The translations under genes and the position numbers were made by a program. From positions 1 to 31,442 of IMG/VR virus record IMGVR_UViG_3300043411_000221: a stretch of DNA of 31,442 bases; one strand, 5' to 3'. This DNA is from a virus. Positions 119 through 16,454 of the stretch are shown one piece after another; positions within the stretch are counted from its first letter, which is position 1; the number at the start of each line of letters is the position of its first letter. A model generated the notes under the pieces. It was not told the DNA's origin, ran no database searches, and saw nothing but the letters and a program-made list of their open reading frames with translations.

Positions 119-3100
119 ATGAGCTTTGGTCCACTAGGCACTTACGTCCCACCTGGCGTATACTCGCGTACTCTAACCGAGGCGACCTTAGCTTCATTGA
201 TCCCAGGGCTGCGAATTCCAATGTTGGTTGGAATTGGCCAGGAGGAGCTGGAGCAGTACGATCTAGAGTTGGTGCGAGGTTCCTCGTCCACCCTAGACCA
301 GCAGATCCTTAACGAGGATATCTCTGCTCGTTGGGTTGTAGACGACACCAACCCTCAGAACTTGGTTCTAGGTGCAAACAATGGCACCCGAACTAGATTC
401 GTAGTTCGTAACTTCCCCATCGTCGATGGGCAGGGTATCGGTCGACCAAGCAACGACGCTAGGGCTGTCTCGGTCACCGTGAATGGTGTTCCCGTTGCGA
501 TTGGAGCTGTACGAGGTACAACTGGAGAGGTCATCCTTCAGGTTCCTCCTCAGCCAACAGATAACGTACGAGTCACTTACTTCTTCCACCGGGGCGATAC
601 TGCGTTCACGGATAACCTATCGGACCAGGTAACGAGCACCACGGCAGAGATTGTGGCCTCTGGGTACGAGCCCTTTTCAATTACGGCTGGCACGAACAAC
701 CTCCTCAAGATCAAGGTTGACGGACTAGAGTCCACGATTGGCTTCACGGATGCCGCAGCTGCGACCGTGTCTTCGTTGAAGAATCAGATTGACGCTGCTG
801 GTATCTCGGGGCTAAGCACCCTGGTGTTCCAGGCAAATGACGGCACGCTTCACCTCCAGATGAATTCTGCAATCTCAATCGAGATTATGGATGGCAATGC
901 AAACGGGACGCTCGGTCTCTTTGCAGGGCAGAAGTCTACTAGAAACACTGCCTTCCGCGTCTACCAGAGACCTATCGTAGATGGATCCTCTGGGGGAATC
1001 ACCACCACTGACCCTTCCAAGGTAGTGGTCATGGTGAATGGATCTCAGGTAATCCCATCCTCGGTAGATGGTACAAACGGGATCGTGAATCTTAGCTCGC
1101 CACCACCTGTTGGGGCGATTGTAGAGATCACCTACTACTCGAATACCTGGCAGGACACGTTCGACTACCTACCTAACACGCTGGTAACGAACATTGTCCG
1201 TTGTGGCATTAGCCCAAACCGTTCGGACTACATTCAGAACCAGGACTTCGTGGTTTCTAACCCAAGTCCTGACGTCTCTATCATCCACTGGGGTACGAGC
1301 TACAGTGTAGCGTCTGCGCTCCGCACTCCAGGAGCAGAGCCTCTAGATGACTCTCAGATTATCCCCACGCTTGTGGACGATAAGCTGTGGTTGGTGGAGT
1401 GTGAGCGCTACGTGGACACCTCTGTTGTACCCTCCAAGGTGTCTACGACAGACTTTGTCCTCCCTGTATCCCCTACCACTGGTAATGGGCGTAACACTCC
1501 ACTGACTCAGACCCTGTTCAACACGGCTACGAATGCTCGTAACGACCTCATCACCAATCGCCCAGACTTGGTGGTGATTCGTGTTGGTCGAAGCTTGCGA
1601 GATGCTTTGGGTCGCCCCGCAGCAAAGGTCCTTGTTCTTGACGGGTCCACTCGCAAGGTCACCCTAAAGGACCCTGTTCCGCCAGACTTCAAGGCGTACG
1701 CTACGTACCACTACAACCGTATTGCAGATGACACCTATGTCATCACAAACAAGACCAGTGGTCCTGCGGGCTCGGGTCAGTTTGAGGTGCTCAGCTCACT
1801 CTACAACACCAATGTGATGCAGGTGCGCTTCGGGTCCAAGGGTGGCGGTTTGGTGGACACCGTGCAGTGGCCACGAGGAGCTGAGCAGGTTCCTGACGCC
1901 TTTCACTACGGCAAAACTCCAACCTCTGAGACGGTCACCGTCACCTTTGGGTCGAGTGCAGCTACGAGTGCTCTGTACACGAACAAGGGAGCACAGCCCT
2001 TCTCGTTCTACAGTCCATCCTCTGCCACTTGGCGCACAGCCCTGAACGGGGCTCCAACGGTGGTTACCAACCTAGCGGTTGCCACGCGTGGTTACCTTGT
2101 GTCCAATGAAATCACCTTGGTCTCAGGTGGGTTTGCCATCACAGCCGCAAACCAATTGCTAGAGCTTACTGTAGACGGAGTTAACCTAACGGTTACCCTC
2201 CCAGTAGGCGTAGCGGTTACCCCAGCTGCAATTGCTACGGCTGTCAATGCTGTAGTTGATGCAAACGCTTCGTTCATTGGTACAGCTCCAAACAACTTGT
2301 TTACAGCTATCCCAGGGGCAAGCGGAGCTACGAACTTCTTCGTTCTACGCAGCTACTCAACTCCAGCGGCACTTCCTGGTGGGTTTGATCACAAGTCCTA
2401 TGCAGCTATCCGTCAAGGTACAGCAGAGACTACGCTAGGTCTCACGACCTTCCAGCGTGCTGACGGTACTCCTACCGCAGTCAACAAGCCTGCTACCCTT
2501 CTGGGTACGACGGCTCAACCGTTCATCATCACGGCTGGAGTGAACGACCTATTCAAGGTCCGCATCAATGGGATTGACTTCACGGTCACTCTCAGCTCCG
2601 CCTCGACCACCTCTGCTCAGATTGTTTCAAACCTCAACGCCATCATTGCCTCCCAAGGTACTGCAAGTGTCGGGACGCTAGACAATCTGAACAAGATCCG
2701 AATCACTTCAAACGTGAACTCGGATCAATCCACCGTTCTTATTCTGAACGGCACTGCAAACGCAACCCTTGGGTTCACAGAGGGTACGTTCGCCAGTCAG
2801 GTTCGAGTCAGTGTCCAAGAAGTCTCCAACAGACTGATGGATACTCCTAACTTTGCCGTATCTACCTGGAGCCCTCCTACTGCATTCGCAGGAGCTGTGG
2901 CTTACCCAGCAACGATCAACGGTTCAGTTTACCTGACCATTGCATCGCTCATCACTGGACTAACCTCTTCGGTTGCTTTCGTTACCGGGGCGAACTCAGC
3001 ATTCAACACGTTGAGTGGGACTCAGATTACTCCAGGTACCGATGGGGATAACGGTGAGGCTACTTACGACAACTTCGTCGTAACATCCTCGAACCCTGTA

Positions 3101-4408
3101 GGTTCGGCTGGCACGGGTATCCCAGGGCAGACCTACACAGACGCTAGGACTGGACTTAGGTTTACTGTTCTACCTTCTACCGATGGGTCGTATGCAACTG
3201 GTGGGTTCTTCACCCTTGAGGTTTCACCAACTTGGAAGGTGAACTCTTCGGTGCCGTACCTCTCGGTTCCAGGGTTGGAGCTAATCGTCACCAATACGGT
3301 GAACGTTGGGATCAACGACACGGCTCAACTTCAGACCTTCAACCCAAGTGGCGTTGAGCCAAAGAACGGGGACTTCTACTCCATTAGCTACCGCTTCTTG
3401 AAGCAGGACTACACGACTCGAATCTTCCGTCAATTCAAGACGATCGAAGCCAACTATGGCCGACTCTCTGCGGAGAATCGAGTCACCTTGGCTGCCTACC
3501 TGTCTATCCTTAACGGGGCAGTCCTGGTAGGGGTCAAGCAAATCGAGAAGGTTCCAAACACAACCCAGGCTAGTGACCAGTCGTTCATCACGGCTCTTCA
3601 GGCGCTTAGTAACCCACTACCTGGAAACATCAAGCCGGACATCATGATCCCGCTTACGTCCTCCACGGCAGTGTTCTCGTACCTCACGCAACACTGTGAG
3701 GTGGCGAGTAACATCCGTAATCAATCGGAGCGTATGGGCTTCATTGGGTTTGCCTCCGGGACAACTCCAACAAACGCTCAGACCATTGCCAAGGCGTTGG
3801 CAAGTCAACGTATCGTCGCCTTCTACCCAGACTCGGCAGTTATCACTCTCTCGAACGAGTTGGGTGAGAACTTCGAGACCCTGGTAGACGGTACGAACTT
3901 CGCAGCTGCCTTCGCAGGAGCTGTTGTAAGTCCTTCGATTGACGTAGCGACTCCATACAGCCACCGTAGGGTCCAAGGCTTCACCCGCATCCCTAGGATT
4001 ATGGATGCAGTGGAGATGAACCAGACGGCAACCGCAGGTGTGACTATCCTGGAGGACCTGGATCCAGTCATCCGAGTTCGTCACGGTCTTACCACCAACA
4101 TGAACTCGGTCTTGACTCGCCTACCTACGGTGACTCAGATCGCAGACCATGTGTCGCAGAACTCTAGGTCGGTTCTTGATGCCTTCGTGGGTACCAAGTT
4201 CCTCTCTAGTCGGGTGAATGAGGTAGAGGTCTCTATGACCTCGCTGTTCAAGTCTCTTATCCAGCAAGAGATCGTTTCGGCCTTCACGGGGATTGCAGCG
4301 GCAATCGACACTGAGGACCCAACCGTGCTTAGAGCAGAAGCCTACTATCAGCCTATATTTCCACTTTTGTACCTAATGCTTACATTCAACCTAAGGGCGA
4401 GGATCTGA
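119..4408 (+). CDS. Contractile tail sheath protein with inserted repeat domains
   Basis: Tail sheath subunit, expected to polymerise around the tube and contract at infection. The N-terminus (GTYVPPGVYSRTLTEA, then a run ending near residue 170) and the C-terminal third from about residue 1090 (FKTIEANYGRLSAENR, IMIPLTSSTAVFSYL, IAKALASQRIVAFYPDS, VRHGLTTNMNSV, then a final SLFKSLIQQEIVSAF region) fit the conserved sheath core. At 1429 aa it is far longer than typical sheaths of about 400-700 aa. The extra length is a central insert with three related modules at about residues 184-271, 669-778 and 799-893. Each begins with a pattern like F.ITAG.N.LL.(V/I).VDG, followed by a helix and a late TLG(L/F). 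This resembles the flagellin/hook IN motif and suggests surface-exposed beta domains on the tail. The start is supported by AGGAGA four bases upstream. An intrinsic terminator follows the gene. Confidence 0.88.
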   Translation: MSFGPLGTYVPPGVYSRTLTEATLASLIPGLRIPMLVGIGQEELEQYDLELVRGSSSTLDQQILNEDISARWVVDDTNPQNLVLGANNGTRTRFVVRNFPIVDGQGIGRPSNDARAVSVTVNGVPVAIGAVRGTTGEVILQVPPQPTDNVRVTYFFHRGDTAFTDNLSDQVTSTTAEIVASGYEPFSITAGTNNLLKIKVDGLESTIGFTDAAAATVSSLKNQIDAAGISGLSTLVFQANDGTLHLQMNSAISIEIMDGNANGTLGLFAGQKSTRNTAFRVYQRPIVDGSSGGITTTDPSKVVVMVNGSQVIPSSVDGTNGIVNLSSPPPVGAIVEITYYSNTWQDTFDYLPNTLVTNIVRCGISPNRSDYIQNQDFVVSNPSPDVSIIHWGTSYSVASALRTPGAEPLDDSQIIPTLVDDKLWLVECERYVDTSVVPSKVSTTDFVLPVSPTTGNGRNTPLTQTLFNTATNARNDLITNRPDLVVIRVGRSLRDALGRPAAKVLVLDGSTRKVTLKDPVPPDFKAYATYHYNRIADDTYVITNKTSGPAGSGQFEVLSSLYNTNVMQVRFGSKGGGLVDTVQWPRGAEQVPDAFHYGKTPTSETVTVTFGSSAATSALYTNKGAQPFSFYSPSSATWRTALNGAPTVVTNLAVATRGYLVSNEITLVSGGFAITAANQLLELTVDGVNLTVTLPVGVAVTPAAIATAVNAVVDANASFIGTAPNNLFTAIPGASGATNFFVLRSYSTPAALPGGFDHKSYAAIRQGTAETTLGLTTFQRADGTPTAVNKPATLLGTTAQPFIITAGVNDLFKVRINGIDFTVTLSSASTTSAQIVSNLNAIIASQGTASVGTLDNLNKIRITSNVNSDQSTVLILNGTANATLGFTEGTFASQVRVSVQEVSNRLMDTPNFAVSTWSPPTAFAGAVAYPATINGSVYLTIASLITGLTSSVAFVTGANSAFNTLSGTQITPGTDGDNGEATYDNFVVTSSNPVGSAGTGIPGQTYTDARTGLRFTVLPSTDGSYATGGFFTLEVSPTWKVNSSVPYLSVPGLELIVTNTVNVGINDTAQLQTFNPSGVEPKNGDFYSISYRFLKQDYTTRIFRQFKTIEANYGRLSAENRVTLAAYLSILNGAVLVGVKQIEKVPNTTQASDQSFITALQALSNPLPGNIKPDIMIPLTSSTAVFSYLTQHCEVASNIRNQSERMGFIGFASGTTPTNAQTIAKALASQRIVAFYPDSAVITLSNELGENFETLVDGTNFAAAFAGAVVSPSIDVATPYSHRRVQGFTRIPRIMDAVEMNQTATAGVTILEDLDPVIRVRHGLTTNMNSVLTRLPTVTQIADHVSQNSRSVLDAFVGTKFLSSRVNEVEVSMTSLFKSLIQQEIVSAFTGIAAAIDTEDPTVLRAEAYYQPIFPLLYLMLTFNLRARI

Positions 4409-4442: not shown

Positions 4443-4476
4443 GAAAACCCAACTCCATAAAAGGGGTTGGGTTTTC
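4443..4476 (+). terminator. Strong intrinsic terminator after the sheath gene
   Basis: An 11-bp perfect stem pairs 4443-4453 (GAAAACCCAAC) with 4466-4476 (GTTGGGTTTTC). Three more pairs (one G-U) close the top, leaving a six-base loop at 4457-4462. A T run at 4472-4475 lies on the 3' arm. It begins 35 bases after the sheath stop and should end or reduce transcription from the structural operon before the accessory block. The A-rich 5' arm means it might also act for the opposite strand, although no gene there needs it. Confidence 0.8.
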
Positions 4477-4502: not shown

Positions 4503-6770
4503 TTGGTGTACTACTTAGGTGTGGTAGCTAAGTCCAGTTCGAGTACTCATGAAATTCTAGACTATTTCCACGAAGATCAGCCACTTAAGTGGGTAGCCGT
4601 AAAACTTGGAATTAGTCCGAATCGTTTGCGGGATCTCTGGAAGAGCCATTACGGTGAAGCTGCATTTGAGGAGAGAGTAAGAAAGCACCAAAAGGGCGCT
4701 CCACCAGGGTCTGCCGACCTTGCCATCGAGGCGTTCACTACAGAGGAGCCCTTTAAGGCCCTGGCAAAAAGACTTGGGATGAGCCCCAACACTATCCGAA
4801 AGATTTGGGTAGCTCGTTTTGGTGCCGAGGCCTTCCGTGCTAGAGGTAAAGCGTCCCAAGCAAAGGGGGCGATATCTTATGGTGTTCGGTCGACTGGGCT
4901 TACAAAAAAGAAGAACTTTGTGTGTGAGCCATGCTCAGGGTGCAACACCCTTGTGTCTCTTACTAAAGTGCAGCTTGCAGCTCTAACTAAAGTAGTCTGT
5001 GAGACTTGTCTTGGTATGGATTCCAAGTGCCCTGTCTGTAATCTAGGCTGCATGGGAGTAAAGGGTGTTGCCATGCACTTTGCTCAGGTAAGGGACAAAG
5101 CTCACCTATTGTATCAAGAAGAAAAGGAAGAGGAGAAGTGGTCGGGCCTCACCGAAAACGTACATTATGTTACTTGCAAGGAGTGTGGGTTTCGGGGGGC
5201 AGCGCTAAGTAACCACCTAAAACTACATGGTTTAGATGCAAGTAGCTACCGAACAAAGTTTAAGGATGCACTAGTAACCTCTTCTTTTTCTGATGAGAAG
5301 AGGTTAAAGTCCTTAATGCCCTCTGCGAGCCGAAGAGCTTACCATTGGAGTCCAGAAGTTTTGAGACAGTTCACGGATGAGAAAGGTCGTGTAATTGTTG
5401 CTGAGGCAGCCTTGGCGTTAGGGGCTTCCCCCCTTACAGTCCTTCACTACTGTCGGGCTTTAGAGTTACCTACCCGTAATAAGTTGGCTTGGCAAAGAGT
5501 TGTTTTGGACCAAGCCAGTAAGGCGTTTGAAGCGCCTTACGTGTGGGAGTGGTCTGACCCTAGGATAGTTAACCCGAGTACCGGGAGGGTTTTCAACTTT
5601 GACGGGTATTTCCCTAACCTAAACCTTATAGTTGAAGCTCATGGCGATCAGCACTGTAGGTATGCTGAGGCTTGGCACGGTTCTCTGGAGAACTTCCATG
5701 CCTTACGGGAGAGGGACGCATTTAAAAAGCAACGAGCGGAGGAGCTGGGGTTTCGAGTTTTGGTGGTACGTCCAGTTGATCCGACACATAGTGTAACTTT
5801 CTGGAAGAGGCTTAGCCCAGTAGACCCTATTGTTTTGGCTAGTCAAATTAACCGCATTGTAACCACCTTACGTCAAGGGGTATTTCCTATGCCCAAGCCC
5901 CTTGATGTCGAGCTTAAGAAAGCATTGACTAGACTTCAGGGTACAAGTGTTGTCGCAAATTCTGATCTCGTTATTTACCCTTACTCTGTAGTAGGTACTT
6001 CCGCTTGTGCTTCATTTTTCCCAGCTAGGTATCAAGCTAAACACAAGGCAGTAGATAAGAGTGTATGGGAAGCCTGGCATGACGACGACCTACTCAGGAA
6101 AGCAATCAAATTGCAGTTGGACTCTGGGCATCCTACTACCCCTGAGAGGGTCTTAAAAGCTCTTGTGATGTACCACCGAACCCCGTCCGTGTTCCGTCCT
6201 GCTGTAGCTAAGTACGTCTATCAAACCTATGGGAACAATGGGGTAGTCTGGGACCCTTGTGCTGGGTACGGGGGTCGACTTCTAGGGGCTCTTGCTGCTG
6301 GAGTTCATACTTACATTGGAACGGACATTGAACCCGCTACCGTAGAAGGTAACCTGGCTATCGCAAAACACTTGGGGGTAAGTGGGTCCTATAAGGTTGA
6401 GCTTCATGCGGCTGAAGACTTTGACCCTGGAGTGCCCCTGGACCTCGTGTTCACCTCTCCTCCATACTTTGACCTGGAGACTTACGGTAAAGCTTCTTTA
6501 AGGGCTAGTGTGGGGTATGGTTCGCCTCAGGGTTGGGTAGAGAGCTTCCTTCGTCCAGTGATGATCAAGGCTATGGAACGTTTGAAGCCAGGAGGGTACC
6601 TTGTGTTGAATTTACCATATAAGCCTGTACTTGGGACTCGATTGGATGTAGAAGCTTCCAGAGAGGCTAAGGGGCTTGGGTTGAGAGAGTTGCCAACACT
6701 TTGGATGCCTATTCGCACATTCAAAGGTACGATGAAGGGTGAGCCCCTACTAGTTTGGCAGAAAGAGTAA
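4503..6770 (+). CDS. HTH / zinc-finger / PD-(D/E)XK nuclease / DNA methyltransferase fusion
   Basis: A single 755-aa chain with four kinds of module. Residues about 15-120 hold two copies of a DNA-binding repeat (AVKLGISPNRLRDLW and AKRLGMSPNTIRKIW, each followed by a FG/YGEAF-like element), of the kind seen in phage homing endonucleases. Cys-rich segments follow from C141. A finger with C225, C228, H238 and H242 (CX2CX9HX3H, then HGL...YR.KF) matches the Ros/MucR type. Residues about 350-420 form a PD-(D/E)XK/Vsr-like nuclease: D367, E378, H380 in EAHGDQH, then D405 and K408. The C-terminal part is a class I methyltransferase with motif I DPCAGYG at 584-590 and catalytic motif SPPY at 652-655, so the target is an exocyclic amino group (m4C or m6A). 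The start is uncertain: TTG 4503, GTG 4506 and GTG 4521 are possible; AGTGAG at 4492-4497 suits the first two. It probably cuts and methylates one site, like a selfish restriction-modification or homing protein. That function is inferred. Confidence 0.8.
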   Translation: MVYYLGVVAKSSSSTHEILDYFHEDQPLKWVAVKLGISPNRLRDLWKSHYGEAAFEERVRKHQKGAPPGSADLAIEAFTTEEPFKALAKRLGMSPNTIRKIWVARFGAEAFRARGKASQAKGAISYGVRSTGLTKKKNFVCEPCSGCNTLVSLTKVQLAALTKVVCETCLGMDSKCPVCNLGCMGVKGVAMHFAQVRDKAHLLYQEEKEEEKWSGLTENVHYVTCKECGFRGAALSNHLKLHGLDASSYRTKFKDALVTSSFSDEKRLKSLMPSASRRAYHWSPEVLRQFTDEKGRVIVAEAALALGASPLTVLHYCRALELPTRNKLAWQRVVLDQASKAFEAPYVWEWSDPRIVNPSTGRVFNFDGYFPNLNLIVEAHGDQHCRYAEAWHGSLENFHALRERDAFKKQRAEELGFRVLVVRPVDPTHSVTFWKRLSPVDPIVLASQINRIVTTLRQGVFPMPKPLDVELKKALTRLQGTSVVANSDLVIYPYSVVGTSACASFFPARYQAKHKAVDKSVWEAWHDDDLLRKAIKLQLDSGHPTTPERVLKALVMYHRTPSVFRPAVAKYVYQTYGNNGVVWDPCAGYGGRLLGALAAGVHTYIGTDIEPATVEGNLAIAKHLGVSGSYKVELHAAEDFDPGVPLDLVFTSPPYFDLETYGKASLRASVGYGSPQGWVESFLRPVMIKAMERLKPGGYLVLNLPYKPVLGTRLDVEASREAKGLGLRELPTLWMPIRTFKGTMKGEPLLVWQKE

Positions 6771-7063: not shown

Positions 7064-10000
7064 ATGTACAAGTACGACTACTCCTCTGTCAATTCAGACC
7101 TAAAGGCTGGAGATCGACGCAAGTTTGCAAGTGATGACGAGGGTGATGAGCCTATTGGGGAGATCCAAGTCTCCGAGTACATAATCTTCCTACTTGCGGT
7201 AGATACCTACATTCGTTACCTTGAAGAAGCAACCTCTCAAGAGGACCCGCTAGATGAGGTAGTTGCGAAGGGGTTAAGACTTCTTCGTAACGTTGATTCC
7301 GAATTGGACTCGATTAGTTCATTCATGCAAGGTCATCTGGCCTCTGCAACGCATAAGCGAATGCTTATGAAGTACCTACAGATAAAAGCTACAGGCCCCC
7401 AAGGGGTGGGGCGTCGTGCTCTTGGTTTACGGACAATACTCTCACGAGGTGGGCCAGCCACGATGAGAGGGATTTTTGATTCTAACAAGGCTCTGAAACA
7501 AGTCCGGGAAGCCATGAGTGCGTCTCAAATGTCTGACGCAGACGCTGCTCTTGATCTATTTGCTAAGCTTACGTTCCGTAATACGCGACTACTTGGGTGG
7601 GTTAAGTTAGCGGCTAGTACAGCTACCTCAGGTCAACTTCCAGCCAATGTTGTGGAGGCGGGAGCCAAGGAAGCTCAAGATCAAAAGATTAAGCTGTTGG
7701 AGGAGAACATCCAACAGATGGCAGCTTCCGGTGGGGATGCATCTAAGAAGGCCCAAGAAGCTCAGACTACGCAGCTTCTGAAGGTCCAAGATGATGCTAC
7801 AGCAGCGGCTCGTCAGTCGATGGATCAAGCTGGGGAGCTTGATGAACCTATGACCAAGTCTCAAGTCGTGGGCATTGCAGTGGCAGCCGCTGCTGCTGCT
7901 ACGAGCGACCCCTCCAACTCACAAAACGTCCCAGAGGCTCTTCGTGGGCTTGACGATGAGCAAAGGTCGGCAGCTCTTACGGACGGTAGGGTCGGAGTTT
8001 TTGCCGGAGCTGGAGCTGGTAAGTCCAGTACCCTCGTAGCTCGTGTTGCCTACTTAGTACGAGATCGTAGGGTCAACCCGAGCCGAATTCTGGTGACGAG
8101 CTTCAACACCAAGGCGGCTTCCGAGTTGAAAGAGAAGATCGGACGCTCGACGAGCGGGGACACTCTACAGCAGATGTCTGTCGGAACGTTACACTCCATG
8201 GGCAAGAGGTTCGTCCTGGAATTCGGGACCCCCGAAGAAAAGTCCGCGTTGGAGTCCGGCTTCATGCAGGGTGGGGCCACGATCGCAAGGGCAGTTCAGA
8301 AGGTCTGGGAGGAGTGCTACGATAAGGACCCTCCGCCCAAGTTGAAGAACGCAACCATGGATCGGGCGAAGTGGTCTGGTAACGACATCACCCCGGAGAT
8401 GGCTAAGGCCCAAGCCGCCTCCGAGGAGGAGATGAAGAGCGCCATGTGGTACGAGATGTACGAAGGGCTCAAGGGTACAGCAGGTCCGGACTGGGAGCCT
8501 CCGTGTAGAGGTAGGGCGTTCGAGAGTTTCATGGGTCGATACCGACCGCGTGGAGATCGCCTCGGGGACTTCACCGATCAGCTAAAAATCTTCAGGGATA
8601 TTCTGAAGCGTAACCCAGCTGTCAAGACCAAGGTTCAAGGGATGTTCGACCACATCATTGTGGACGAAGCTCAAGATCGAAACACCGTGATGGCGGACAT
8701 GATAGACCTCATGTCCCAGCATATTACGGACGGGGGAGATGGTAAGTCATGCTGGATTGTCGGAGACGACAAGCAAGCCATCAACTCCTTCCAAGGAGCC
8801 AAGGCGGCACTCTTCAAGGACCTCTTCCAGAAAGAGGGCTGGAAGACCCGTGTGATTCGCACGAACTATCGGTGCGAGCCTGAAATTGTCGACGCCGCAA
8901 ACCGGCTCATCGGTCACAACGAAGGGAACGTTCCGATCCCGCAAGTGGCTGCTCCAGGCCGTAAGCCTGGCTTCGGAAGCATCAAGGTTCAAGTGGCTGA
9001 GGATGAGGCGGACGCTGCACTCAGCACCATCGAAGAAATCAAGCAAGCACATGTCAACGGTGACGACCTTACGGACAACGCTGTCTTGTTTCGTACAAAC
9101 AAGGAGATTCACTCCTACGAGACGGCCTGCATCATTCGCGGCATCCCGTATGCCAGGAAGGGGGCTGGGTCTTTCCTGGGTTCGCCTGAGACAAAGGCGG
9201 TCTTGAGTTATGTCCAACTCGCAACTGGCTCGGACTTCGAGAAAATGCAGCAATCGTTGGCTCAAGTCGTTGACACTCCCAATCGTTTTTTCATCTCCGA
9301 CAAGAAGCGAATCCCAGAGGCTGTGGATCAAGCGCTGGCCCAATATGCTCGGGCCGAGGGGTTGAGCATCAAGGCGGTTAACCCACTTGAAGCTCTTGAG
9401 GACAGGAATTTCCTTCGTAACTTAGCAGTAAATCTTGGTCGGTTGACCAAGAGCGGCAAGGGCACCAAGTTCGAGGAACAGCTTCGGGATCTTGCGGATT
9501 CGGTACGGGACCTCAGGATCAGTGCCTCGGACCCCGATTACAAGACGAAGGACCTGTTCGACGATATCTTGTCTGTCGAAGGAGTCGCCTACGTCAAGGG
9601 TTCCCGGCAACCGCAGACCTTCCGCGAGAGCCTGAAGGCCGACTTGCGGGACGCTCTTGGGGAAGACGACGAGGCCGTTGAATCCGATGAGGATGAGGAG
9701 GGCTCAACCAAGGGCCTTGGTAACGTTGCCTTTCTCTACAAGTTGGCCGAGCCGGATCCCACGGATGAAGATGACGCCATCACCCCGCCCACATCCCCGG
9801 ATGGGTTCGCAGCAAAGATGTCTCGCTACACCGCTAAGATGCGTGACCTTCGGACGGACCTCGGTAAGTGGACGAAGGATCAGAACGCGCTCCCTCCAGA
9901 ACAGCGTAAGAGGCCACCGGGAGTCTATCTCGGTACGGTCCACTCAGTGAAGGGTGCCCAGTGGAAGACCACGTTCATCCAGATGCCGGGTGGGAAGTTC

Positions 10001-10288
10001 CCCATGGAAATCAAGCCCAAGCCTGGTCAGCCTCCGCCAGATCCGGTCAAAGAGGCAGAGCGTTGGGAGGATGAGCGCCGTTTGGGGTACGTAGCTCTGA
10101 CCCGAGCCGCCAAGAATCTTCGCATCGTTTGCCCCAAGGAAGTTGGGGGTAGATCGGCCGGAATTAGCCCCTTCGTCCGTGAAGCTGGCCTGGTGGCAGG
10201 GGAAAACATCTCGAAACCCGAAACTCCACCTCTCACCAAAGAAGCCGCAGAGTTGATCGACTTGTACCAGTGGGGGGGTGGGCTATGA
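7064..10288 (+). CDS. UvrD/PcrA-like superfamily 1 DNA helicase with long N-terminal extension
   Basis: An ATP-dependent 3'-5' type SF1 helicase by motif content. It has a Q motif (LDDEQRSAAL), Walker A GAGAGKS at 315-321, motif Ia (VTSFNTKAASELKEKI), GTLHS, Walker B VDEAQD at 533-538, motif III (GDDKQAINSFQGA), motif IV (NYRCEPEIVDAANR), motif V (GTVHSVKGAQW, from 957) and motif VI (YVALTRA, with R1014). All key residues are present, so it should be active. At 1074 aa it exceeds the 650-750 aa of typical UvrD/PcrA because of about 290 unrecognised N-terminal residues ending in an Ala/Gln-rich helical linker. The start ATG follows AAGGT. The DNA of the helicase core lacks CTAG and looks richer in G+C than the extension and the neighbours, suggesting transfer of the core. 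A role in replication, recombination or repair is likely. An acidic insert lies near residues 865-880. Confidence 0.93.
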   Translation: MYKYDYSSVNSDLKAGDRRKFASDDEGDEPIGEIQVSEYIIFLLAVDTYIRYLEEATSQEDPLDEVVAKGLRLLRNVDSELDSISSFMQGHLASATHKRMLMKYLQIKATGPQGVGRRALGLRTILSRGGPATMRGIFDSNKALKQVREAMSASQMSDADAALDLFAKLTFRNTRLLGWVKLAASTATSGQLPANVVEAGAKEAQDQKIKLLEENIQQMAASGGDASKKAQEAQTTQLLKVQDDATAAARQSMDQAGELDEPMTKSQVVGIAVAAAAAATSDPSNSQNVPEALRGLDDEQRSAALTDGRVGVFAGAGAGKSSTLVARVAYLVRDRRVNPSRILVTSFNTKAASELKEKIGRSTSGDTLQQMSVGTLHSMGKRFVLEFGTPEEKSALESGFMQGGATIARAVQKVWEECYDKDPPPKLKNATMDRAKWSGNDITPEMAKAQAASEEEMKSAMWYEMYEGLKGTAGPDWEPPCRGRAFESFMGRYRPRGDRLGDFTDQLKIFRDILKRNPAVKTKVQGMFDHIIVDEAQDRNTVMADMIDLMSQHITDGGDGKSCWIVGDDKQAINSFQGAKAALFKDLFQKEGWKTRVIRTNYRCEPEIVDAANRLIGHNEGNVPIPQVAAPGRKPGFGSIKVQVAEDEADAALSTIEEIKQAHVNGDDLTDNAVLFRTNKEIHSYETACIIRGIPYARKGAGSFLGSPETKAVLSYVQLATGSDFEKMQQSLAQVVDTPNRFFISDKKRIPEAVDQALAQYARAEGLSIKAVNPLEALEDRNFLRNLAVNLGRLTKSGKGTKFEEQLRDLADSVRDLRISASDPDYKTKDLFDDILSVEGVAYVKGSRQPQTFRESLKADLRDALGEDDEAVESDEDEEGSTKGLGNVAFLYKLAEPDPTDEDDAITPPTSPDGFAAKMSRYTAKMRDLRTDLGKWTKDQNALPPEQRKRPPGVYLGTVHSVKGAQWKTTFIQMPGGKFPMEIKPKPGQPPPDPVKEAERWEDERRLGYVALTRAAKNLRIVCPKEVGGRSAGISPFVREAGLVAGENISKPETPPLTKEAAELIDLYQWGGGL

Positions 10289-11079
10289 TGGGTAAGCAAG
10301 CCATGTCTGAAGATACCAAAGGGGTTAGATTTGTTGAAGTCACCCTCGAAGATATATCCAAGTTCATCTTGCGGAGTTGGCGTGCTCTTCGCCCGAAACA
10401 GGGGACAGAGAAGCGTGAAATTTACTATGACCTCGCATTGAGTGCCAACGTAGCTATCCGTATTTGGACCTCAATTGGAGTGGGTCGTGATATTGGAGCT
10501 GATATTGGCTCAGATGCGATTCGCATTCAAATACTAGCCAAAAAAGGTGGTAAGTCTTGGCCACTAACCGAGAAAGGGGTAAAGGCCCCTACCGTCAGAC
10601 GAACTAAAGGGTGGAAAGATAATCTTCAGGAGCGAGTAGAAGACTACCTTGAGTTGTACGAAGAGAAGGAAGCTGTATTTGAGGCACTAGCTACTGGGAA
10701 TCCAATCCAGTCCGAAGTTAAGCAGAGGGTTCAAGACCCAGAGCCTGAGCAACGCGACCGTGACCCAGAGCCTAGAGGTCGTCCAGCGGATGCTACCTTC
10801 ACCAAGCTCAGGAGTGGAGAGTGGGGCCTTCGTGTAATCGGCAAGGCAGGTCCTGGAGATCGTGTTCTGGCAAGACGTCAGAGTGGCCAAGCTCAGATAC
10901 TAGTATGCGGTGAGGTTGTCTGGAGTGGTACAGACCACGGGGATTTCATCACTGTGACCACGATCAGTAAAACACGAAACGCCAGTGGTCCGTGTTCGTG
11001 TAAGGTTGGTGCGACGGACGATGGGCCGTGTGGGTGTAACTCTGTAGTTGCTTCTTATTCCTATGACCGTAGCAAGTAA
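10285..11079 (+). CDS. Conserved phage-type hypothetical protein with C-terminal beta domain
   Basis: I know no established function. The N-terminal half contains VAIRIWTSIGVGRDIGAD and GSDAIRI, a pattern I associate with uncharacterised phage proteins. A charged, Pro/Glu/Arg-rich linker (DPEPEQRDRDPEPRGRP) separates it from a small C-terminal beta domain, FTKLRSGEWGLRV ... GEVVWSG, a short module that recurs as an appendage in phage and bacterial proteins. It ends in two close Cys pairs (CSC and CGC) that could bind metal. The ATG at 10285 overlaps the helicase stop (ATGA), implying translational coupling. GTG 10270 is an alternative in-frame start and ATG 10303 a later one. Coupling suggests work with the helicase on DNA, which is an inference. 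Confidence 0.6.
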   Translation: MMGKQAMSEDTKGVRFVEVTLEDISKFILRSWRALRPKQGTEKREIYYDLALSANVAIRIWTSIGVGRDIGADIGSDAIRIQILAKKGGKSWPLTEKGVKAPTVRRTKGWKDNLQERVEDYLELYEEKEAVFEALATGNPIQSEVKQRVQDPEPEQRDRDPEPRGRPADATFTKLRSGEWGLRVIGKAGPGDRVLARRQSGQAQILVCGEVVWSGTDHGDFITVTTISKTRNASGPCSCKVGATDDGPCGCNSVVASYSYDRSK

Positions 11080-11938
11080 AGACTCAGACTCCCCTCTTAC
11101 TTTTCAAGTTCTTGTGGACCCTACGCACCCTTCAATCCTGGAGGGTGCGGTTTCGTTTGAGACCGGAGCTACAAGAGCGCAGTTAGCTCCAGGGGTCGCC
11201 TATGAGCACCACGGTGAGGAGTTCAGTGCAGATGACGCTGGAGCCCTCACGAGGCTCCACGAGGACTTGATCTTGGGGGTCCCGATGCCTCTGACCTTGT
11301 CCCTACACAAGGTAGAGGACCTGGATGCTATCTTAGCTACGGCTTTGTTTCTGCATCGAGACCTGACTCTCCATCCCAACACGACTGGGCTCGTGTCTGC
11401 TGTAGACCTTATCCACCGTAGGGGTCCAGCCTTCTATGGACACGTAGATGAGGACCTCGCTCGTTTTCTACATGGCCTCCAAGACTACCTCAGACAAGAA
11501 ACCTCAAAGCAGGAACGTGGAGTCCGGATAGGGACCGCAGCTCAATGGATTCGAGAGTACGTCCTTGATGGTACCTTGCCGAACCTAGGCCCTCACGCTC
11601 CCAGAGTTCGAATCCTAGATGTCGGCACAAATGGATTTGTACTAGCTGAGTCGGATCAGCCATCGACCCAGTGTTGGGAGGTGCTGTATCGTTTGGGGTT
11701 CCTACGTGGGGTTGTATTGGGGCCTCTGGTGGATAGTGAGCGTCGCACGGTCCTAGCCGCCAAGAAAAGCTCTCATGTTCAATTCGACCTAGCTAGGGCT
11801 GCCTCACACCTCAATGAGTTAGAGGTTCTGTCCGGTGGGGACTCAGAGTGGGAAGTCTCAGGGGAGTACCTGACGAGTCCTACAGAGGGGTCTGTAGTGC
11901 TAGCCAACTACATCCTTCAAGTCCTACTCAGGGTATGA
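11063..11938 (+). CDS. Hypothetical protein, possibly DHH-phosphoesterase-like
   Basis: A soluble protein of about 291 aa from the ATG at 11063; an in-frame TTG at 11048 also exists. It overlaps the previous gene by 17 bases. Weak hints of a DHH/DHHA1-type phosphoesterase are an EHHGEEF motif, the segment HKVEDLDAILATALFLHRDL, the segment VDLIHRRG, and a C-terminal stretch (RRTVLAAKKSSHVQFDLARAA) that recalls a DHHA1 substrate-binding region. The order and exact residues do not match a textbook DHH enzyme, so this is a lead only. If true, it would hydrolyse short nucleotides or single-stranded nucleic acid, which would suit a position after a helicase. Confidence 0.5.
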   Translation: MTVASKDSDSPLTFQVLVDPTHPSILEGAVSFETGATRAQLAPGVAYEHHGEEFSADDAGALTRLHEDLILGVPMPLTLSLHKVEDLDAILATALFLHRDLTLHPNTTGLVSAVDLIHRRGPAFYGHVDEDLARFLHGLQDYLRQETSKQERGVRIGTAAQWIREYVLDGTLPNLGPHAPRVRILDVGTNGFVLAESDQPSTQCWEVLYRLGFLRGVVLGPLVDSERRTVLAAKKSSHVQFDLARAASHLNELEVLSGGDSEWEVSGEYLTSPTEGSVVLANYILQVLLRV

Positions 11939-11965
11939 GGATCTTGTTGTGCGGTTTAGGTTAGA

Positions 11966-13753
11966 GTGAGTCGCACCCTTGTTACGATAGCTACGGATGG
12001 GTTTCGAGACTACGTAAGTCTCCCCAATGGCGATACAATCAATCTCGGTACAACCTCGGTCCTAAAGCTGATTACGGAAGTGGTGCCCTTCTCAGCGGAT
12101 ATTCGTAAGGCCTTAGATACCTTCCTAGCTAAAGGTACTGTCACTTTGGCGGCTGATCAGTCAGCTCTACTGAAGGTTCTTCGCCCAAAGAAGTCCCGAT
12201 GGGCAGCACATGAGAATCGTTTTATTCCCGTTGGTATACAAGACCCTAATGGAGTTTGGAATTCAATGAGTACCACCAAGGAACTTAGACTCACCCCAAA
12301 AGAGGTCGAACGAGGGGAAGGTGGAGTTACAGTTGTCGTGCGTCCCCAAGAAGATGGTGGTTATTGGGTTGCTGCGGTAGACCTTAAAACAAGGAAACCC
12401 CTAGGTAAGGCCTTTGAGTCCTTTGTAGATAGTAAGTCAGACGTGCCATCTGCGGTTAAGGAAGTCGTTAGGTGGTTGAGTAAAATGGGTATAGGGGATG
12501 GGATGGCAGAAAGTTCTCGCAATCGACGTGCTAACAGTGGAGTTTGGGATTCAATGAGTACTGACCTGTTTAGCTCTAAGCTCGCATCTCTAGAGACCCT
12601 TGTCGAACTTGGTATCGACGAGGACAATACTAGGGTTGCTCGTCAACTTGGGACGGCTCTACTTTCCATTGTCACTTCTGCTAAGGGTCGAGCAAACCCT
12701 AAAGATGGGGACTTTGCGATGGTAATGAGTGCCCCTGGCATTGGGAATGACGCTGTATTGTCCTTCCATAAGACAAAAGCAGAGGCTGAGAAAGAGGCTA
12801 CACGTCAGGAAAAGTTAATGGGGGGGCATCCTTATGTGGTAGATGTCGGGCCAGAGTCTAGGTCTGAGGCTGTAAAGTCCAATGGTAACAGCTACTTCAT
12901 TCGACCTAACATGAAGAATCTGAAGAAGTCTGCTGGTACTCGTCTAGCAGCGGTTGATGCGGATGCCAAGCGAGAGCTGGACTTGTTCATTGAGAACGAG
13001 GGACGGTTGGCAGCTAAGAAGGAGAGTATCCTTACCAACCTACTCCGTAAGTTGAAGTCTGATGGTTACAACCACAGCCAGGCCCCCAAACTTTGGATGT
13101 ACCTCGTGGACGAAGGGGCCAAGATGTACGCGAAGGAGATGGGGAGTGGCATTGGAGACGCAAAGAACCTCTTCCCAAAGGAACTCCGAGAGTCTCTCGC
13201 AAAGGACATGGCTGACAACGAGCTAGAGCTAATGAAGAATGGGGAGTACGACCATTTGAAGAAGGCTTCTAGCTCGGTAGAGGCTCAAGTGGAGACGGTT
13301 GTTGGGCAAGTAGAGACTGCACTCCAAGTGGTCGAGACTAGCCCTAAGGCCAACACGCACCTGGCTAAGAAAGACCTTCACATCATTGCTACGAAACTAG
13401 CTGCTATGGTTTCAGAAGATGCGGGTCCTGAGGTCACAGCAGGGCTAGAGGACTTGGCTGGGAAGGTAGCCAAGATCCAGTCTCACTTTGCTTGTGGCGG
13501 GGGCTGCTCAGGTCATGCTCAGAGTGAGGCAGAGAGTCTACTATCCAAGGTTGAAGACACCTTCCAAGTAGTAGAGGCCAGTGGTAAGTCTGGAGCAAAC
13601 CTAGCGAAGAAGGACCTACACACTACCACGGTAAGGCTAGCTTCTTTGCTGCGTGAGGGCGGCGTAGATAGCGTCGAGGGTCAAAAGGCTCTACGAAACT
13701 TGTCTTTCAATGTAAGTAAGATTCGGTCTCACTTCGCGAGTCGAGTCGTCTAG
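11966..13753 (+). CDS. Unrecognised 595-aa protein with duplicated helical modules
   Basis: I cannot assign a family. The GTG start at 11966 lies 27 bases after the preceding stop. The N-terminal part is globular and contains GVWNSMST near residue 95, repeated as GVWDSMST near residue 191; the DNA of these copies is almost identical. A middle segment has DGDFAMVMSAPG ... SFHKTKAEAEKEA ... GHPYVVDVG. The C-terminus has two related helical modules at about 438-508 and 520-592, sharing Q-V-V-E, LAKKDLH, LA.L and KI(Q/R)SHFA. They are joined by a Cys/Gly linker, CGGGC. The absence of enzymatic motifs and the place just before tail genes make a virion-associated role possible. A multi-domain cytoplasmic protein of the accessory block is equally possible. 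Confidence 0.6.
   Translation: MSRTLVTIATDGFRDYVSLPNGDTINLGTTSVLKLITEVVPFSADIRKALDTFLAKGTVTLAADQSALLKVLRPKKSRWAAHENRFIPVGIQDPNGVWNSMSTTKELRLTPKEVERGEGGVTVVVRPQEDGGYWVAAVDLKTRKPLGKAFESFVDSKSDVPSAVKEVVRWLSKMGIGDGMAESSRNRRANSGVWDSMSTDLFSSKLASLETLVELGIDEDNTRVARQLGTALLSIVTSAKGRANPKDGDFAMVMSAPGIGNDAVLSFHKTKAEAEKEATRQEKLMGGHPYVVDVGPESRSEAVKSNGNSYFIRPNMKNLKKSAGTRLAAVDADAKRELDLFIENEGRLAAKKESILTNLLRKLKSDGYNHSQAPKLWMYLVDEGAKMYAKEMGSGIGDAKNLFPKELRESLAKDMADNELELMKNGEYDHLKKASSSVEAQVETVVGQVETALQVVETSPKANTHLAKKDLHIIATKLAAMVSEDAGPEVTAGLEDLAGKVAKIQSHFACGGGCSGHAQSEAESLLSKVEDTFQVVEASGKSGANLAKKDLHTTTVRLASLLREGGVDSVEGQKALRNLSFNVSKIRSHFASRVV
12251..12273 (+). repeat. Direct repeat copy 1 (23 bp)
   Basis: GGAGTTTGGAATTCAATGAG plus TAC recurs at 12539-12561 with one mismatch. 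Both copies are in the same reading frame and encode GVW(N/D)SMST. Such high identity at DNA level suggests recent duplication or constraint on the nucleotide sequence. Confidence 0.75.
12539..12561 (+). repeat. Direct repeat copy 2 (23 bp)
   Basis: This is the second copy of the element at 12251-12273, 288 bases downstream (start to start), a multiple of three. It differs only by G for A at the tenth base. Confidence 0.75.
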
Positions 13754-14511
13754 TGCTTCAAGGACTTCAAGTACAGACTTCCCTGTCCGCTCCAAATGGG
13801 AGCGGTTTGGGGGAAGTCTTGTTGAAGGTCTGTAAGGGCCCGTGTGGGAAAGAATTGGAGTTATTGGCGTTCGGTAAGGGTGAGGGTAAGTATGGGCGTA
13901 AGGCCAAGTGCAAGTCCTGCTTAGCTGATTACGAACGGCTCCGTCGAGAGACCAATCCTCTTACTGAAGAGCAAAGGGAAATTGGTCGCCAACGGGCTAG
14001 AGCGTGGGGTGCTGCTAATCAGGAGCGGAAGGCAGCCAGTGGGCTTGCTTACTCCAGAGCACACCCTGATCGAATGAAAGCCTCTGCCTATAAATGGCGA
14101 GCCAAGAACCCTGAGAAGACGCGAGAAATTAATCTTCGATGGCTAACTAACCCAGGCAACAAGGAAAAAGCTAGAGCAGCAGTTAAGCGTTGGTCTGAAG
14201 CTAACCCTGAGAAGCTCAAAACTGCTAGCCGAAACTGGCGCACAGAGAATCAGCACTATTGGAGACTTCGAGCCGAGGCTTTCAGTAAGGTCTTGGCAGA
14301 TTTCACGTTTGAGCAGTGGCTAGAAGTACAAGAGGAGAATGGGCATCGATGTGCTTACTGTCTCTCTAGTGAAGTGAAGCTCACGATGGATCATGTCATC
14401 CCAATTCTAAGGGGTGGACAGCATACAATGGACAACATCGTTCCAGCTTGTAAGCCTTGCAACTCTAGCAAAAAAGACCGCTTAATTTTTTACATGTTGG
14501 ACAAAAGGTAG
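13753..14511 (+). CDS. HNH homing-type endonuclease
   Basis: A free-standing HNH nuclease. The C-terminus has a C..C pair (HRCAYC), then D213-H214 in MDHVIPILRGGQHTMDN and PACKPCNSSKKDR, giving the HNH/zinc arrangement with metal-binding and catalytic histidine. The N-terminus has a CKGPCG ... CKSC zinc ribbon. Between them, about residues 75-165, is a run of degenerate repeats around W..(K/A)NPEK, typical of DNA-contacting arms in phage HNH enzymes. The longest frame starts at GTG 13753, overlapping the previous stop, but a long hairpin covers 13762-13830. TTG 13819 or TTG 13822, just before the zinc ribbon and after GGGGGAAG, are plausible true starts. It sits between structural genes and probably spreads by homing, cutting phages that lack it. 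Confidence 0.85.
   Translation: MLQGLQVQTSLSAPNGSGLGEVLLKVCKGPCGKELELLAFGKGEGKYGRKAKCKSCLADYERLRRETNPLTEEQREIGRQRARAWGAANQERKAASGLAYSRAHPDRMKASAYKWRAKNPEKTREINLRWLTNPGNKEKARAAVKRWSEANPEKLKTASRNWRTENQHYWRLRAEAFSKVLADFTFEQWLEVQEENGHRCAYCLSSEVKLTMDHVIPILRGGQHTMDNIVPACKPCNSSKKDRLIFYMLDKR
13762..13830 (+). promoter_or_regulatory. Long imperfect hairpin over the HNH gene start
   Basis: Three stacked arms pair: 13787-13793 (CCGCTCC) with 13799-13805; 13775-13783 (AGACTTCCC) with 13811-13819; and 13763-13770 (GACTTCAA) with 13822-13830 (TTGAAGGTC), with one bulge. The purine-rich GGGGGAAG and the TTG candidates lie in the 3' arm, so the structure could hide the HNH ribosome binding site. It has no T tract, so it does not look like an ordinary terminator. 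Confidence 0.7.
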
Positions 14512-14519
14512 GGACTACA

Positions 14520-15260
14520 ATGGGATCTCCTCAGCAAGAACTAAATTCCTACATCTATCGTATGGGCACGGCCCCGAACACTAGAGTAGCTGTAAGCCAA
14601 AAAAACAAAATTTTCGGGTATATGACCGGAAAGCAAGGGTTTCAGCAGATCGGAGTGATCTCTGAGTTCGGCTTCGACGAGTCCAGGACCATTGACGCTG
14701 TACGTGGCGTAGGTTTCGGAGACCAGGTTGCTGAGTTGGTGCCTGGAGTCACTGAGCCGATGACCCTGACCCTGAACCGCACCCTACTCTACACCGTCAA
14801 CATCTTTCAGGTGTTGGGTTACAAGGGTGGCGTAGAGGGTCTCGTACGCTCTCTAAAGCACCACAGGTGGCCCTTCGACCTCAAGCAGGAACTGGTCTTC
14901 TCGGAGATCAGCTCAGACGCAAAAGACGTGAGCGCCCCTGGGTTAAAAAACTCTGTAAGTGCAGGTAGAGCGACAGCTGGAGTAACTGGGCTCCTAAATG
15001 GCGGTTCTATCAAGGCGCTCTTCACCTTCTATGAGGGATGCTGGTTGAACAGCTACTCGGCCTCGTTCACCTCCGATGCCGCTATGGTAGCTGAGAATAG
15101 CTCCGTAACGGTCACAGACATCATCGATGGGTTCTCGAATTACGGGGAGTTCATCGATTCGGGTCTAGCGCCAATCGGCGCTAACGGGTCGGCTGGAGCT
15201 GGGTACAGTCTTCGTTTTGCAGGTGGAGCTGCCTCGAATACGGCGGTAGGGGCAGTCTAA
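14520..15260 (+). CDS. Tail tube protein
   Basis: A major tail tube subunit of 246 aa forming the inner channel of the tail. The sequence fits the tube fold used by contractile phages. Near the N-terminus is GFQQIGVISEFGFDESRTI, followed by a mostly beta segment (GVTEPMTLTLNRTLLYTVNI) and KALFTFYEGCWLNSYSASFT with VTVTDI in the second half. Size, beta-rich composition and position just before chaperone and tape measure genes all agree. It starts with an ATG nine bases after the HNH stop, with AGGTAGGGA upstream. The gene resumes the structural operon after the accessory block. The C-terminal 30 residues are Gly/Ala-rich. Confidence 0.8.
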   Translation: MGSPQQELNSYIYRMGTAPNTRVAVSQKNKIFGYMTGKQGFQQIGVISEFGFDESRTIDAVRGVGFGDQVAELVPGVTEPMTLTLNRTLLYTVNIFQVLGYKGGVEGLVRSLKHHRWPFDLKQELVFSEISSDAKDVSAPGLKNSVSAGRATAGVTGLLNGGSIKALFTFYEGCWLNSYSASFTSDAAMVAENSSVTVTDIIDGFSNYGEFIDSGLAPIGANGSAGAGYSLRFAGGAASNTAVGAV

Positions 15261-15356
15261 CCCCTCGCAAACTAACAGATTAAGATAAACGTAGAGAGAC
15301 TAGATCGGATCAAATTCCCTTTCTGTCTCTCCCACCTATGGGTGCGGAGAACACAC
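15261..15356 (+). promoter_or_regulatory. Leader before the chaperone genes: shared motif, hairpin and RBS
   Basis: This gap carries GATCAAATTCCCTTTCTG (15308-15325), matching the motif upstream of the sheath gene. GAGAGAC at 15294-15300 pairs perfectly with GTCTCTC at 15325-15331, placing the motif in the loop. GGAGA at 15346-15350, six bases before ATG 15357, is a good Shine-Dalgarno sequence and argues for that start rather than an upstream GTG at 15342. A TAAGAT box near 15280 could be a -10, but no -35 is evident. Confidence 0.4.
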
Positions 15357-16454
15357 ATGGCAACACTCTCAGCGAAGAAGATCACTGAAGCACTAAAGAA
15401 GGCTCAGAACGTAGGGCACACAGAAGAGGCATTTACCATAGGAGGCTGCGAGATAGTGCTTCGCAGCCTCACTTCCGATGAGTATATCGTGGTAATGTCT
15501 GAGATCGAAGAGGTCCCTGAGGCTGGCTACGTAAAGGCGTTCAAGCAAGAGCACTTGGCCAGGTCTATCATAGAGGTCAATGGGATTGACCTACGTACCA
15601 TAGACTTTGTTACCGTAGATGTGGAGGACTTGGACCCTCAGACCCGAAAGACCGTGATCAAAGAGGTCAAGGTAGAGCGCCATGCATTTATTCGGGACTA
15701 CGTGATCTCGAATTGGGCAAGAGAGGCTCTTGACGTAGCGTTCCGTAAGTTCAATGACGTAGTTACGGTAGCCGAAAGAAAAGCCTCTGAGGGAGTAACT
15801 TTCTTGACCCCAGATGAGACGGGGGAGGAACGTTACCGTAGGCTCCTACTTGAGGCGAAGGCGATTGAGGGATCTGTTTCGATTGACCTAGTCAATCGAA
15901 TTCGCGAGGAGGTTGGCTTTGTTGGGGGTGAGGCGAAAGCAACCCCTGAAGAGTATAAAGCTGCGGGGGACCGCCTTGCAGCTTTGGAGCCTGAGCCTGA
16001 AGAAGAGGTCTTCACCAAAGACCCAGAGCCTCCTCTCCCATCAGAGCCAACAACCCCTCGAAGGCCTCCCCCTCGCATGGTCGTAGAGGCTCCTACTCAG
16101 CAGGCTCAAGCTGTTCAAGCGCCTGAGGCTTCCCCTGACCCTGATGAGTTGATGACTCGACGTCAACCTCTAAATCAAAGGGTCGTGGCTGTACCTCAAC
16201 CTGTAACTCCTCCTCAGGCATTGCATGTAAATCCTGTCATCCCGGCTTCCCCAGCTGCCCTTAAACGAGCAGCTGAGATTGCAGCACTAGAGGGAGACTT
16301 TAGTGCGGAGCCAGAGCCAGCTATTCAAGGGGGTACAGAGGTAGCTGAGTTGACCAGAGTTCAACCTAAGTTGGACCCAGCAGCGCTAGCTCCTATCTTT
16401 GATCAGCCCCCTACTCTAGGTCTCAACCCACGGTTTAGACCACCCCAGAGATAG
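15357..16454 (+). CDS. Tail assembly chaperone-like protein 1
   Basis: Placed between tail tube and tape measure, where tail assembly chaperones are found. The first 120 residues form an alpha/beta domain (FTIGGCEIVLRSLTSDEYIV then LARSIIEVNGIDLR) with the strand-strand-LT..E pattern common in such chaperones. The last 150 residues are a Pro/Glu-rich, low-complexity tail (PLPSEPTTPRRPPPR). It should coat the tape measure during tail assembly and be absent from the virion. The start is set by GGAGA upstream of ATG 15357. It is separated from the next gene by ten bases with a stop in the alternative frame, so the usual programmed frameshift fusion is not evident. Confidence 0.6.
   Translation: MATLSAKKITEALKKAQNVGHTEEAFTIGGCEIVLRSLTSDEYIVVMSEIEEVPEAGYVKAFKQEHLARSIIEVNGIDLRTIDFVTVDVEDLDPQTRKTVIKEVKVERHAFIRDYVISNWAREALDVAFRKFNDVVTVAERKASEGVTFLTPDETGEERYRRLLLEAKAIEGSVSIDLVNRIREEVGFVGGEAKATPEEYKAAGDRLAALEPEPEEEVFTKDPEPPLPSEPTTPRRPPPRMVVEAPTQQAQAVQAPEASPDPDELMTRRQPLNQRVVAVPQPVTPPQALHVNPVIPASPAALKRAAEIAALEGDFSAEPEPAIQGGTEVAELTRVQPKLDPAALAPIFDQPPTLGLNPRFRPPQR

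Follow-up and report, generated by a model that had tools for sequence, protein, structure and literature searches.

Homing genes are known to spare the genomes that carry them by having their target disrupted by an intron, an intein or a gene, or by having it altered. Free-standing LAGLIDADG_2 homing endonucleases share their domain with two of the three fusion classes described below (B and C) and are found as stand-alone copies at the same capsid site, whereas the protein examined here has a Vsr-like nuclease in place of the LAGLIDADG type. To our knowledge, ordinary LAGLIDADG homing enzymes lack a methylase. The EDxHD homing endonuclease I-Bth0305I and Vsr have their nuclease fold in common with the present protein and differ from it in that their chains are without a methylase; I-Bth0305I has furthermore been described with group I introns, whereas the present gene is free-standing between genes. 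In EDxHD enzymes, as in the present protein, zinc fingers and HTH modules are tethered to the nuclease (PMC3943268), and free-standing phage homing genes are reported to gather near essential genes (PMC10448857).

Type IIG RM enzymes likewise combine a nuclease and an amino-methylase in one polypeptide with the nuclease first. The present protein differs from these in lacking a C-terminal target-recognition domain, in its homing-type nuclease and DNA-binding modules, and in the position of its gene beside conserved genes. Stand-alone phage methylases (phrog_12517, Vibrio phage 2.058.O and Bacteroides phage DAC16) are homologous to the methylase part at about 25–34% identity and lack the nuclease; at the two such methylase loci that were read, in Vibrio 2.058.O and Mammaliicoccus PMS2, no sheath or capsid gene was annotated alongside. 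The actinophage methylase Taj_79 group joins LAGLIDADG to a phage methylase in one chain in nine phages, for which the authors judged an RM role unlikely and did not find strong evidence for transfer (PMC9957025). In that group, the nuclease is located inside the methylase gene, whereas in the present fusions it is N-terminal, of several types and tied to two sites; among Mycobacterium phages, no relative of the present fusion proteins was matched. A literature search, with subscription journals largely outside its scope, returned no published description of a recurrent, site-specific fusion family, PMC9957025 being the only near case, nor of the family with another function, an outcome that an earlier annotation made from the DNA alone (the first-pass annotation) had envisaged. 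The parts are known; their combination and their recurrence at two sites appear to be new.

Genomic setting and domain organization

The DNA analysed here (the window) is a virus record of 31,442 bases, probably a fragment, and its source is a jumbo myophage, distantly related to phage G. In the cultured distant relatives Tunturi_5 and Bacillus phage G, no nuclease or methylase is annotated directly behind the sheath or capsid gene. The fusion gene is flanked by a tail sheath gene and a UvrD-like helicase gene (7064–10288), and consists of one open frame that runs from a TTG start at 4503 to a stop at 6770 and encodes 755 aa; the start codon is uncertain, with GTG codons lying close behind TTG 4503. 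The features are as follows.

119–4408, + strand: tail sheath gene, upstream neighbour that precedes the insertion point of the element family
4443–4476, + strand: terminator-like hairpin of 14 pairs between the sheath gene and the fusion gene
4503–6770, + strand: nuclease-methyltransferase fusion, whole gene, 755 aa (frame and full-length relatives)
4551–4847, + strand: two N-terminal HTH-like repeats, about aa 17–57 and 75–115 (weak HTH_28 and HTH_23/HTH_Tnp_1 matches)
4923–5085, + strand: Cys-rich segment, probable zinc fingers (CEPC 141, CETC 166, CPVC 176, H191/H201 region; from sequence)
5163–5264, + strand: Ros/MucR-like finger, aa 221–254 (C225, C228, H238, H242; PF05443 match)
5340–5478, + strand: third HTH-like helices, about aa 280–325, ahead of the nuclease core (helices 20–27 and 31–40 of the structure model)
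5475–5807, + strand: Vsr/EDxHD-like nuclease core, about aa 325–435 (E349, D367, E378, H384, D405, K408; model, fold matches and conservation)
5826–6767, + strand: amino-methyltransferase domain, about aa 442–755 (DPCAGYG 584, SPPY 652; profile and fold matches)

From the N- to the C-terminus, the protein comprises two HTH-like repeats, the Cys-rich segment, the Ros/MucR-like finger, the third HTH, the nuclease and the methylase. The second HTH-like repeat could be aligned with relatives, among which the Cys-rich segment is largely kept, and inverted repeats comparable to the hairpin are visible in relatives. The ROS_MUCR match (PF05443) of the window protein lies below the Pfam cut-off (21.9 versus 25.4 bits), whereas several relatives score above it; a search of the protein against NCBIfam gave no match. 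That all domains reside in one frame, as proposed in the first-pass annotation, was borne out by the single 755 aa frame with domain matches above chance: the content of the frame is not a chance product, since the methylase part matches phrog_12517 (1.8e-11) and a PADLOC methylase model (1.9e-11). Every residue and motif which that annotation had singled out (C225, C228, H238, H242, D367, E378, H380, H384, D405, K408, DPCAGYG from 584 and SPPY from 652) was found in its place; the Cys pairs CEPC 141, CETC 166 and CPVC 176 and the third HTH before the nuclease are additional to it. An intein or an assembly-made fusion was rejected in view of unbroken frames in about 40 contigs, the N-terminal position of the nuclease and purifying selection on both domains.

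The nuclease domain

The nuclease domain was modelled from 26 relatives with a mean pLDDT of 92.2. Foldseek returned Vsr first (E 2.4e-3), and the DNA nucleases that scored best in VIA-align were Vsr (Z 8.8) and the homing endonuclease I-Bth0305I (Z 8.2), with two mitoribosomal entries scoring slightly above Vsr. Residues D367, E378, G381, H384, D405 and K408 are invariant in the alignment of these 26 fused and stand-alone relatives, and E349 is nearly so, the comparison being one within the family alignment rather than residue by residue with I-Bth0305I. Of the PD-(D/E)XK-like site proposed previously, D367, E378, H384, D405 and K408 thus stand, whereas H380 is present in most but not all of the 26. 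A degraded nuclease was rejected, as the catalytic residues are intact in the homologues. No Pfam Vsr match above the cut-off was obtained for the window protein, while a distant fusion, L005, lies just over it (27.3 versus 27); Pfam detected no LAGLIDADG domain in the window protein, and a search of the nuclease profile against PDB sequences gave nothing significant. Judged by the structure model, the window nuclease belongs to the Vsr/EDxHD-like fold and is of the homing type.

The methyltransferase domain

Structure prediction, suggested as a check in the first-pass annotation, placed the methylase fold as well as that of the nuclease, the methylase model having a mean pLDDT of 93.8. Its fold matches are led by the class-I amino-methylases TrmN and Trm11 (Z about 18); these are tRNA methylases, and the substrate is therefore not fixed by fold alone. 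The SAM-binding and catalytic motifs of the class-I fold, DPCAGYG and SPPY, are conserved among relatives. While the window protein remains below the Pfam N6_N4_Mtase cut-off (21.3 versus 26.7 bits), four fused relatives (L218, L219, L220 and L232) pass it at 29.5–50 bits, and the solved protein that matches the profile best, 2zie (9.7e-7), is a putative DNA modification methylase. The chain ends about 100 aa past SPPY, a stretch that the model fills with core helices and strands, and no C-terminal target-recognition domain follows the methylase in the model of the window protein. We infer that the domain is an N4/N6-type amino-methyltransferase, with DNA as the putative substrate in the window protein.

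These data also bear on a very improbable alternative, in which the methyl group is passed to RNA or protein, or the protein mainly regulates neighbouring late genes: the leading Trm11/TrmN folds and the occurrence of HTH and Ros/MucR modules in transcription regulators would suit it, and the SPPY motif, the four N6_N4_Mtase matches above the cut-off, the 2zie match and the coupling to DNA nucleases all speak against it.

A family of nuclease-methylase fusions

Viral contigs yielded no or few loci when scanned with the whole protein or the nuclease alone, and methylase alignments were needed. In a scan with these, all relatives at 43–60% identity were long fusions, and nearly all of the remainder (about 28–36%) were methylases standing alone, some 350 aa long. 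When the scan was tuned to the fused clade, it recovered 46 loci, with a fusion in every intact frame and no stand-alone methylase of this clade, so that the co-occurrence of nuclease and methylase, for which the first-pass annotation had proposed a search, proved to be a recurrent feature. No member of the fused clade was found in the bacterial and archaeal genomes scanned.

Three classes were distinguished. Class A, to which the window belongs, combines the Vsr-like nuclease with the methylase; in class B, a LAGLIDADG_2 nuclease replaces the Vsr-like one; and class C has a different LAGLIDADG_2 nuclease, the methylase and C-terminal zinc ribbons. The LAGLIDADG_2 domain exceeds the Pfam cut-off in class B and C relatives, and L211 has two LAGLIDADG domains. 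The fusion of the distant jumbo phage L005 comprises MucR fingers, the Vsr domain mentioned above and a methylase. In the methylase tree (quick search), classes A, B and C require one change each, A plus B form one clade (96, starred), and the stand-alone methylases form one group apart from one very long branch.

One capsid-site gene (L220, 3927–6221, – strand) encodes N-terminal zinc ribbons, two repeats that look PD-(D/E)XK-like by eye (FDVEHRTFGRVSVKTA) and a methylase; the putative second PD-(D/E)XK nuclease has no Pfam support, as Pfam names only the methylase and a finger in this protein.

The site behind the tail sheath gene

All class A genes with available upstream sequence lie directly after the tail sheath gene. 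Among relatives, this site holds a fusion, a stand-alone finger-plus-nuclease gene (324–636 aa), remnants, or no relative of the fusion, the last state denoting the lack of a match to the window protein, so that other nucleases may be present. The remnants are N-terminal pieces of 188 and 201 aa and a 79 aa piece with a methylase match. On a sheath tree of 51 phages, the four states require 18 changes. The stand-alone nuclease alleles contain a NUMOD3-like motif, below the Pfam cut-off; NUMOD3 is a DNA-binding module of homing endonucleases.

Insertion sites in related phages, the comparison of which had been recommended in the first-pass annotation, could be paired as occupied and empty for the fusion (L145/L096) and for a stand-alone nuclease (L098/L115). 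L145, which has the fusion, and L096, which has none, share 91.8% identity as far as the sheath stop codon. The match resumes just behind the fusion, within the terminal part of a small gene that is complete in L096 and truncated in L145; in L134, the fusion is followed by a homologue of that gene. In the second pair, about 1.5 kb with a stand-alone nuclease in L098 corresponds to about 64 bp in L115. For the window element itself, no nucleotide-exact empty site was found; in its nearest sheath relative, L090, a different small open frame separates sheath and helicase, so that homology with the window ends abruptly at the sheath stop without a clean insertion. The two pairs above are cleaner in this respect.

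A split fusion was observed at the sheath site of L156 (11108–15437), with an HTH and finger part at 11108–12085, a finger, nuclease and methylase part at 13380–15437, and, close to the break, an HNH-like match on the opposite strand. This is possibly a homing gene broken by another insertion.

The site behind the major capsid gene

At 26 of the 27 class B and C loci, the fusion gene starts 5–227 bp past the end of the major capsid gene, the 27th contig starting inside the gene, and homology between occupied and empty capsid sites ends near the capsid stop codon. Further relatives have nothing at this site, LAGLIDADG alone (L227; L235) or fusions. Four phages of the sheath clade without a sheath-site methylase carry capsid-site fusions (two of class B, one of class C, and L220), while the L161 phage carries fusions at both sites, one of class A behind the sheath gene and one of class C behind the capsid gene. 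The L005 fusion, too, lies behind a capsid gene, of T4 type, with another homing endonuclease gene in between.

This intervening gene of L005 (1107–2819, + strand) matches phrog_3339 (1e-94). In L235 (3216–6330, – strand), three different LAGLIDADG genes of 293, 323 and 401 aa stand in a row behind the capsid gene, the last of which (401 aa) is 49% identical to the class B nuclease and is without a methylase.

Movement and selection

A capsid DNA tree (44 rows) requires seven changes between B and C, and its starred branches alone force at least six for C and seven for B. By methylase, B and C each form a single group, contrary to the capsid tree, a disagreement indicative of movement of the LAGLIDADG types between phages into one site. 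As the B and C loci were found via the methylase, their mutual comparison is fair and frequencies against empty sites are not. For class A, the window's own, the evidence of movement consists of its patchy distribution only.

In close fused pairs, dN/dS (where computable) was 0.04–0.15 in the nuclease and methylase domains, and both enzyme domains are, on these sequence comparisons, under purifying selection. Divergence jumps between domains of one gene: dS in L009/L134 is 0.07 in the nuclease versus 1.09 in the HTH part, and dN in L145/L134 is 0.46 in the nuclease versus 0.11 in the HTH part. Such jumps are indicative of intragenic recombination.

Proposed function and alternatives

We interpret the window gene as a jumbo-phage homing endonuclease gene of the free-standing kind, with a product that includes a DNA methyltransferase most likely protecting the resident target (probability about 0.68). 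Mobility of the element family is supported by the sequence comparisons, and cutting, methylation, a shared target and protection are what we infer from them. The selfish, homing-type element envisaged in the first-pass annotation gains support from site-specific presence and absence, stand-alone alleles, remnants, movement at the capsid site and LAGLIDADG fusions of the same methylase clade. Directed by the HTH and zinc-finger modules, the nuclease would cleave a conserved sequence at or close to the sheath gene of a co-infecting phage without the fusion gene, and repair from the carrier would copy the fusion gene into the cut phage. The same DNA-binding modules would bring the fused methylase to the same place, where it would modify the resident copy of the target and thereby leave carriers and converted genomes uncut. 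The simplest reason for the lasting link to one methylase lineage, despite the change of nuclease, would be a common site of action of the two enzymes. Stand-alone nucleases occur at the same sites, which suggests that homing there does not require protection by methylation. A target search by codon conservation gave no signal beside the insertion.

At roughly even odds, the family represents a self-protecting homing enzyme, a mobile gene between homing endonucleases and RM enzymes, in which one methylase lineage exchanges its nuclease type (Vsr-like, two LAGLIDADG kinds and perhaps another PD-(D/E)XK) and homes next to highly conserved structural genes, with methylation of the resident target making an intron, an intein or a mutated target unnecessary.

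A phage-borne, type IIG-like RM weapon is unlikely; the first-pass annotation had offered a phage weapon against competing phages as its alternative reading. Such an enzyme would methylate the carrier genome at many sites and cut unmethylated DNA of hosts or competitors, its fixed place reflecting late expression or chance. Nuclease and methylase are indeed joined in one chain, and the nuclease part of L145/L134 is far more divergent than its flanks, as in specificity-module exchange; however, the nuclease families are homing types, methylase-free stand-alone nucleases occupy the same sites, the two fixed sites adjoin conserved genes, and the chain has no room for a C-terminal target-recognition domain.

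It is also quite unlikely that the methylase is useful cargo (e.g. against host restriction) that hitch-hikes on a homing nuclease and has no part in homing or protection. This reading would allow stand-alone methylases of the fused clade, of which none was found, and the nuclease is kept by every intact member of that clade although its type changes. In its favour, phages commonly carry related methylases that stand alone, and an anti-restriction role is the usual interpretation of orphan phage methylases (PMC9957025).

If protective, the fused methylase would be a further way for a homing gene to spare its own carrier, and the suspected kinship of homing genes and selfish RM systems would become directly testable in one protein family. 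The family might also be a source of site-specific nuclease-methylase pairs that recognize long sites, and serve as a marker for gene flow among jumbo phages.

Other genes of the window and its relatives

An HNH endonuclease gene at 13753–14511 (+ strand; PF01844, 48.9 bits; endonuclease VII-type phrog) is flanked by two genes that lie immediately next to each other in the close relative L090 (17922/17926), and is probably a second, independent homing gene of the window. In many relatives, homologues of the gene of unknown function at 11048–11938 are found on the opposite strand, in the interval between sheath and helicase, which makes this a rearranged stretch as well. The UvrD-like helicase frame (7064–10288; homologues in L126, L130, L145 and L106) differs in length across relatives, from about 1,080 to 1,954 aa, a variation that could reflect inteins or domain gains. 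Upstream of the capsid gene in L183 (1–2802) and L221 (9022–9960), a protein of the head gene cluster ends an intein-like stretch (HSYVI..AVHNC), its sequence suggesting an intein.
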